DNA from: Candidatus Gemmiger stercoravium
GTDB taxonomy: Bacteria > Bacillota > Clostridia > Oscillospirales > Ruminococcaceae
Assembly (NCBI GenBank): GCA_019119835.1
Contig: DWWE01000043.1
Coordinates: 1 to 64,000 of the forward strand
Direction: 5' to 3'
DNA length: 64,000 nucleotides
Shown in pieces: positions 53,871 to 55,396 of the stretch. Below the pieces are notes generated by a model. It did not search any database. It was given only the letters and a program-made list of their open reading frames with translations, and was not told where the DNA came from. The position numbers were made by a program, and so were the translations under genes. How positions within the stretch are numbered: position 1 is the stretch's first letter; every line of letters starts with the position of its first letter.

Positions 53871-54959
53871 ATGAAAATTTCCAAAAAAATGATGCCGCTG
53901 GCGGTGCTGGTGGCCGTGGTGGTGCTCCTGGCGATCGCGCTGGCGGTGCTCTCCGGCCTGGATACCGAGGAGGAAACCGGCCTGCCGCTGTTTGAGCTGG
54001 ACCCTGACTCGGTCACCGCCGTGTCCTACCAGCAGCAGGACGAGGAGGACCCCGTCGATGTGACGCTGCTCTATGCCGATGAGACCTGGACCTTGTCGGA
54101 CGACCCGACCCTGCCGCTGGACCAGGAGACCACGGCCAACCTGGCCGCCGACATCGCCGGCCTGACCGCGCTGCGGGACCTGGGGACCGACGCCGAGACC
54201 GAGGAGATGGGCCTGGACGAACCCACCGCCGTGCTGCGGCTGGCCGTTGACGGCGGCGACATCACCGCCGAGCCCGCCACCGGCGAGACGGCCTCCGGCC
54301 TGTACACCCTGACCATCGGGGCCGAAAACAGCGTGACCGGCGCCTACTACGCCAAGGGCAGCTGGGGCGACAGCGTCTACACCATTGACAGCTCCGATCT
54401 GTCCGGCCTGTTCAAGACCCCGCGGCAGCTCTATGCGGACCAGGAGATCACCGACCTGGAGACCACCGACCTGACCGCCATGACGGTGGAACTGCCCGGC
54501 GAGACGCTGGACTTCGCCTATGACGGCGAGACCTGGACCCTTGCCGACGACCCCGACTACCCGCTGGACCAGGACATCGTGACCAAGATGGCTTCCACCC
54601 TCTGCTCGCTCAAGAGCCAGTGGAGCATCACGAGCCCCGAGGCGGACAGCGTCTACGGGCTGGACAGCCCGGATGCCATCGTGACCCTCACCGGTTCGGA
54701 CGGCACGACGGTGACGGCCCGGTTCGGCGCCGTCTCGGCGGAGGATGACACGGTCAGCTACCTGCAGGCCAGCACGGCGCCGGATGTGGTGTACGAGATC
54801 TCCTCCACCAATCTGTCCGCCTACGCCTATACGAAGGACAGCCTGCAGGCCGCCACCGACGAGACCGCCACCGAGGAGAGCAGCGAGGAGGACATCATCG
54901 CAGAAAACCCGGTGGGCGGTGCGGACGACTACGTCTCCTCGGTGCCCGCCGACGAATGA
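53871..54959 (+). CDS. DUF4340-domain protein
   Basis: N-terminal TM followed by repeated domain pattern (DETWTLSDDPTLPLDQE / GETWTLADDPDYPLDQD). Confidence 0.85.
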   Translation: MKISKKMMPLAVLVAVVVLLAIALAVLSGLDTEEETGLPLFELDPDSVTAVSYQQQDEEDPVDVTLLYADETWTLSDDPTLPLDQETTANLAADIAGLTALRDLGTDAETEEMGLDEPTAVLRLAVDGGDITAEPATGETASGLYTLTIGAENSVTGAYYAKGSWGDSVYTIDSSDLSGLFKTPRQLYADQEITDLETTDLTAMTVELPGETLDFAYDGETWTLADDPDYPLDQDIVTKMASTLCSLKSQWSITSPEADSVYGLDSPDAIVTLTGSDGTTVTARFGAVSAEDDTVSYLQASTAPDVVYEISSTNLSAYAYTKDSLQAATDETATEESSEEDIIAENPVGGADDYVSSVPADE

Positions 54960-55090: not shown

Positions 55091-55391
55091 ACCCCCAAGG
55101 GAAGTGAAAACCGCTTCCCCTGGGGGTCTGAGCGTGTCGAGAAACTCGACACGCTCCACAAGGGGCAACAGCCGCGCACGGCAATTGCCTAACGCGGCTG
55201 TTTCCCCTTGTGTATCCCCTTCGACAAAATTTTACGGCAAATCGCGCACTCGTCACTGCGTTCTTCGCACACAATTTGCCGTAAAATTTCCCTGTCGGTG
55301 TCGCCGTCGTCGGCACATGTCCGCCGACGGCGACGAATTTTTTCAACAGCCTGCGCCCCCAAGGGAAGTGAAAACCGCTTCCCCTGGGGGC
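55091..55391. repeat. Compound palindromic element: five consecutive inverted repeats bounded by two identical 35-bp hairpins
   Basis: CCCCCAAGGGAAGTGAAAACCGCTTCCCCTGGGGG at 55092-55126 and 55356-55390; between them 12-bp, ~20-bp, 16-bp and 10-bp inverted repeats. Confidence 0.9.
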
Positions 55392-55396
55392 TTTTT
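55355..55396 (+). terminator. Second 35-bp hairpin copy in terminator configuration
   Basis: GCCCCCAAGGGAAG...CTTCCCCTGGGGGC followed by TTTTTG. Confidence 0.6.

Follow-up and report, generated by a model that had tools for sequence, protein, structure and literature searches.

A palindromic element of Candidatus Gemmiger stercoravium between duplicated terminator hairpins: a probable IS1182-type MITE

The palindromic block at 55091-55391 of the window (the whole stretch of 64,000 nucleotides analysed here, from Candidatus Gemmiger stercoravium) is, with a probability of about 0.88, an IS1182-type MITE, moved by a transposase that duplicates a target stem-loop whole by cutting at both of its feet. 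On this reading the MITE (55130-55353) entered an intrinsic terminator, the one following the gene whose end is at 54959. A transposase of the IS1182 subgroup would join the 3' ends of the element to the two feet of the stem-loop, the target probably being an extruded cruciform or hairpin, and gap repair would then copy the entire stem-loop, which would therefore leave an identical terminator hairpin on each side. Harm to the host is probably low: a hairpin and a tract would be left on each outer side (the A-tract on the left, the T-tract on the right), so that termination should, by this anatomy, survive in both directions. The original prediction had proposed a mobile or dispersed, MITE-like palindromic element, and this is borne out by about 40 copies, terminal inverted repeats (TIRs), target-site duplications and empty sites in relatives.

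Anatomy of the block

An identical 35-mer lies at 55092-55126 and again at 55356-55390, and between the two copies stand four inverted repeats in series; all of these, described earlier from the same block, were recovered where they had been placed. The inverted repeats go far beyond chance. With one outer base pair added (A-T on the left, G-C on the right, the inner 35 bp being identical), the 35-mers become two hairpins in direct repeat at 55091-55127 and 55355-55391. These are the left and right copies of the duplicated target, the hairpin of the host's intrinsic terminator; beside the right copy the T-tract of the terminator, TTTTT, is kept and can be read directly at 55392-55396 on the plus strand. 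The 35-bp hairpins had been taken for the ends of the element itself. They are instead the duplicated host terminator; other copies carry locus-specific hairpins in this position. A remark on the same hairpins, that their stem mismatch would become a U-G wobble in a minus-strand transcript, accordingly holds for the host terminator and does not extend to the mobile element.

The element proper, 224 bp on the plus strand, is geneless and consists of four hairpins; its boundaries were set with the help of relatives and of the ~40 copies that its genome carries. Terminal hairpin 1 (55130-55156), found by repeat search and from the flanks of copies, has arms of 12 nt at 55130-55141 and 55145-55156 that match at 100%, forming the left end GAGCGTGTCGAG-AAA-CTCGACACGCTC, with the left TIR (G/C)AGCGTGTCGAGAAA in the first arm. 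Internal hairpin 2 (55157-55212), seen in the inverted-repeat search and in the fold, has arms of 28 nt (55157-55184 and 55185-55212, 86%) and a central palindrome. Internal hairpin 3 (55227-55289) is closed by AAATTTTACGGCAAAT arms of 16 nt (55227-55242 and 55274-55289, 100%), and is marked by inverted repeats, fold and some paired changes among copies. Internal hairpin 4 (55300-55334; arms of 14 nt at 55300-55313 and 55321-55334, 93%) carries the loop motif GC(A/G)CATGTCC, whose conservation emerges from relatives and the copy alignment as well as from the inverted repeats. The right TIR (55338-55353, minus strand) reads CAGGCTGTTGAAAAAA in the window copy and CAGACTGTCGAAAAAGT in most copies, and follows the pattern of IS1182-family TIRs, CAG(N)CTGTC(G/A)AAAAAG; read inwards on the minus strand, the right end is CAGACTGTCGAAAAAG in most copies. 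Listed open reading frames across the block appear incidental and none is convincing, as had been judged before.

Folding of the 227-nt core gives -116.7 kcal/mol, whereas its shuffled versions average -64.7 (z -11.9; z -12.0 for the minus strand). A z of about -12, together with paired changes in the stems of copies from the window's genome and from a second genome, G141, would also suit a structured noncoding RNA or structured 3' UTR that was amplified by copying while its hairpins were selected as RNA. This explanation, part of the original prediction, is very unlikely. The shared stems of the window's genome hold about 12 positions with A-C pairs (G-U on the minus strand) against 3 with plus-strand G-U, which would favour an RNA, but this asymmetry is absent in G141 (3 versus 4 positions); moreover, palindrome repair can also keep stems matched, ends and target are kept from genus to genus but interiors are not, and no Rfam family comes near its gathering score (best 22.2 bits against a threshold of 54). 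An RNA function is not claimed here; it is unproven, and support for it does not go beyond the fold itself.

Copies, relatives and empty sites

The element is dispersed. With the block as query, 40 scored copies were found in its own genome, a 2.36-Mb draft in 120 contigs that is 93% complete, with best E values from 3e-165 to 3.7e-51, and the block is thus not single-copy. Nearly all of these copies match only positions ~47-260 of the query (window 55128-55341); the flanking 35-bp hairpins are not shared, because flanking hairpins differ from locus to locus. Most two-ended copies sit between two hairpins that match each other and are specific to the locus, such as GCCCGCCGGAATGCGGCGGGC (L028), AAGCCCCGGTTCACACCGGAGCTT (L005), AGGGTGTGCCCTGCGGCGC(A/G)CCCT (L009) and AACGGCGGGCCCGGGGCCCGCCGTT (L055), and A- and T-tracts are generally found outside the duplicated hairpins. 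These hairpins are intrinsic terminators, present on the two sides as direct repeats. Some copies have lost part of their sequence, and others lie at contig ends or lack matching hairpins (e.g., L016, L022, L008). In one copy (L029, contig C83, ~1688-1750), the loop of internal hairpin 4 is split by a further ~60 bp of hairpin sequence. Searches of the plasmid and phage collections yielded no copies of this MITE.

Divergent versions of the element occur in ten other genera of the family. The left-end pattern is present in 13 of 398 family genomes from 11 genera, the window's included, and a reversed control pattern in none; named carriers include Acetanaerobacterium elongatum and Candidatus Gemmiger stercorigallinarum. 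The relatives from other genera keep both ends and the place between (mostly) duplicated terminators, and most keep the GC(A/G)CATGTCC loop, whereas large parts of the interior show no sequence relationship between genera. Six loci from several genera (L035, L040, L074, L077, L082, L086) have a hairpin 2 motif of the type ATC(A/G)CTGCGGCT, which is absent from the window type. Among the elements of G141 (L087, L121, L122, L127, L129), some carry a tandem module of ~150 bp that runs from hairpin 1 to the CATGTCC loop, and these reach ~350-500 bp or more.

Many extragenic palindromic copies, and a modular interior with tandem expansion in G141, would be expected of REP/BIME palindromes spread by a Y1 (RAYT) transposase or of a BOX-like modular repeat. 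Such an origin, the REP/BIME label of the original prediction, is highly improbable: no Y1 transposase (PF01797) was found in the element carriers G000 (the window's genome), G054, G085 and G135, and the element has terminal repeats, whole-hairpin target duplications and a right end matching IS1182.

Comparison of orthologous loci with and without the insert, proposed as a check, yielded empty sites with a single terminator in relatives. At the hup-hslR junction, the window's genome has GCCCGCCGCATTCCGGCGGGC, the element and then GCCCGCCGCATTCCGGCGGGC-TTTT. A lone terminator, GCCCGCCGCTGACCCGGCGGGC-TTTTTT, occupies the same junction in G400, the nearest congener, which lacks the element there, and several further congeners likewise have a single terminator with the element absent. 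The window's own junction in G400 and G401 holds one terminator of different sequence and no element, the next gene there being judged a GH3 orthologue from its start only. The PFP locus was also examined as an empty site, and its gene order is not conserved in congeners.

Insertion sequences of the IS1182 family

The right end of the element, CAGNCTGTCGAAAAAG, matches the TIRs of IS1182-family insertion sequences (IS). In most copies the right TIR, CAG(A/T)CTGTCGAAAAAG, equals the terminal repeats of these IS, which mostly read CAG(N)(C/T)TGT(C/A)(G/A)AAAAAG, the same pattern as the MITE right end and in several cases identical letter for letter. The left end, (G/C)AGCGTGTCGAGAAA, fits the IS pattern CAGN(C/G)TGTC(G/A) only partly; it is a palindromic variant (AGCGTGTCGAG...) and just approximately a terminal inverted repeat. 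The IS1182 family (NCBIfam NF033551; e.g., ISEfa7) shares with the window element its right TIR, and shares also the preference for terminator hairpins and the duplication of the whole hairpin; the window element differs in having no transposase gene and a modified, palindromic left end.

Whole-hairpin duplication is the kind of target duplication common to the MITE and the IS. In G033, whose contigs match Acetanaerobacterium elongatum, an IS1182-family IS is split over contig ends at three loci with the same hairpin beyond both ends, and relatives of its transposase occur in 26 of 398 family genomes. Fourteen intact IS in family genomes have an exact direct repeat on either side, in each case a complete hairpin of 21-39 bp; across the bacteria examined, the whole-hairpin repeats of IS span 19-39 bp overall. 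Four of the IS transposases score 389-423 bits against an IS1182 cut-off of 270 and contain the domains PF05598, PF13751 and PF01609, and the IS with these intact transposases have CAGNCTGTCGAAAAAG-type TIRs with exact whole-hairpin repeats beside them. Among eight plasmid IS1182 elements examined (Enterococcus, Bacillus, Aminobacter, Acinetobacter), five show whole-hairpin duplication. In the remaining three, and in four IS of the family, the hairpins on the two sides differ (L252, L253, L259, L281, L328, L330, L331), as would be expected after recombination between copies.

An IS1182 transposase acting in trans, and no longer found in the draft genome, would probably have mobilised the MITE. 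No such transposase was found in the window's genome, and searches with PF01609 and NF033551 both came back empty; this is not proof of absence, because the draft, 93% complete, is broken up at repeats. At L128, the one left end in G141 without the MITE interior, there is no transposase nearby. A multi-copy IS1182-like IS of G141, considered as an autonomous partner, was rejected because its ends differ (GGCAATACCGCA...).

Duplication length and the folded target

The length of the target duplication follows that of the hairpin. When the left and right flanks of copies were aligned, the median score was 38 in cognate and 12 in non-cognate pairs, and 60 of 99 candidate end pairs, a set that includes nested, truncated and falsely paired ends, scored above 99% of the non-cognate pairs. 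Among the MITE loci, 53 duplications of 20-43 bp, chosen by an alignment score that favours long repeats, all fold; in 52 of them the centres of repeat and hairpin lie no more than 1.5 nt apart, and duplication length correlates with hairpin span at r = 0.97 (n=53). Seventeen IS duplications of 21-39 bp, analysed separately, gave the same picture (17/17 folded and centred; r = 0.98); eight of them are at copies of one IS in G340 or at relatives of that IS, but their target sites are independent. The duplicated repeat stops at the hairpin feet in nearly every case.

Most DDE transposons make target duplications of a characteristic length, set by the spacing of the enzyme's cuts. Here the duplication has the length of the host hairpin, and it therefore seems that the enzyme reads its target in folded form. 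The coincidence of repeat and hairpin boundaries suggests that an extruded hairpin is recognised, and strand transfer would take place at its feet. It is likely that a DDE transposase of the IS1182 subgroup, with TIRs CAGNCTG..., measures its target by secondary structure in this way and that MITE families of gut Oscillospiraceae exploit it. The enzyme would cut at both feet of any terminator stem-loop, with the duplication a complete hairpin of any length (19-43 bp were seen), and the MITE families would enter terminators without destroying termination in either direction. This would be a host-sparing strategy of insertion, the terminator being copied and not broken; it would explain a large class of palindromic repeats of gut Clostridia, at which assemblies break and recombination may occur, and whole-hairpin repeats would offer a simple rule for finding IS1182 insertions.

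Some IS1182 members are said to target palindromes, as others report of the 2015 review by Siguier, so that target choice is partly known. In the open-access literature no description was found of whole-terminator duplication by IS1182 or its MITEs. IS1272 targets terminators and deletes or replaces the stem-loop with no duplication (PMC4923244, PMC5678879). As described for IS1272/TnSha1, the choice of stem-loops and terminators likewise follows no sequence consensus (PMC5678879, PMC4923244), but the stem-loop lost there is duplicated whole at the window element. Wan et al. had considered, as hypothetical pathway b, that transposon 3' ends joined at the 5' feet of stem-loops would duplicate the whole stem-loop; the outcome here matches that pathway, which becomes directly testable. 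The IS1182-derived MITEs reported so far (MITEPye1, PMC11578231; ISMac2 MITEs, PMC3852290) are also small and geneless with IS1182-like TIRs, but they were reported with 4-bp direct repeats (one ISMac2 MITE with none), not whole hairpins. The pneumococcal SPRITE, RUP and BOX elements are, by their description, similarly small, dispersed, palindromic and partly modular, and the review that covers them describes no terminator-hairpin duplication (PMC10969869).

Since IS1272 is itself an IS1182 member that targets terminators (PMC4923244, PMC5678879), the element might have replaced a stem-loop without duplicating it, its flanking hairpins then being chance neighbours or having evolved independently. 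This is extremely improbable. Each flanking hairpin is a direct repeat of its own partner, in most cases with an identical loop; the repeats around the IS are exact, and empty sites retain one hairpin. Replacement is refuted for copies with matched hairpins and could still hold for copies without a duplication.

The hairpin might also have been duplicated after insertion, by local duplication or by gene conversion that restored the terminator, and not through a staggered cut. Some flank pairs (e.g., L010, L132 and L134) do keep the same stem with a different loop, and at L134, in G141, one loop appears inverted, as if the hairpin had flipped. A later duplication is nevertheless very unlikely: intact IS of Oscillospiraceae, and those on plasmids from Bacilli, Alpha- and Gammaproteobacteria, are flanked without spare sequence by exact whole-hairpin repeats, and the duplication almost always ends at the hairpin foot.

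About 40% of the candidate end pairs are without a matching duplication, some of them being detection artefacts or nested or truncated copies. In the window's genome, three loci (L007, L056 and L064, on contigs C4, C42 and C76) show exchanged flanks: L007 has one hairpin, A, on its left and another, B, on its right, whereas the order is B-element at L056 and element-A at L064, both of them contig ends; either recombination between copies or misassembly would account for the exchange. Candidatus Gemmiger stercorigallinarum has A-element-A at L161, with the left flank as in L007.
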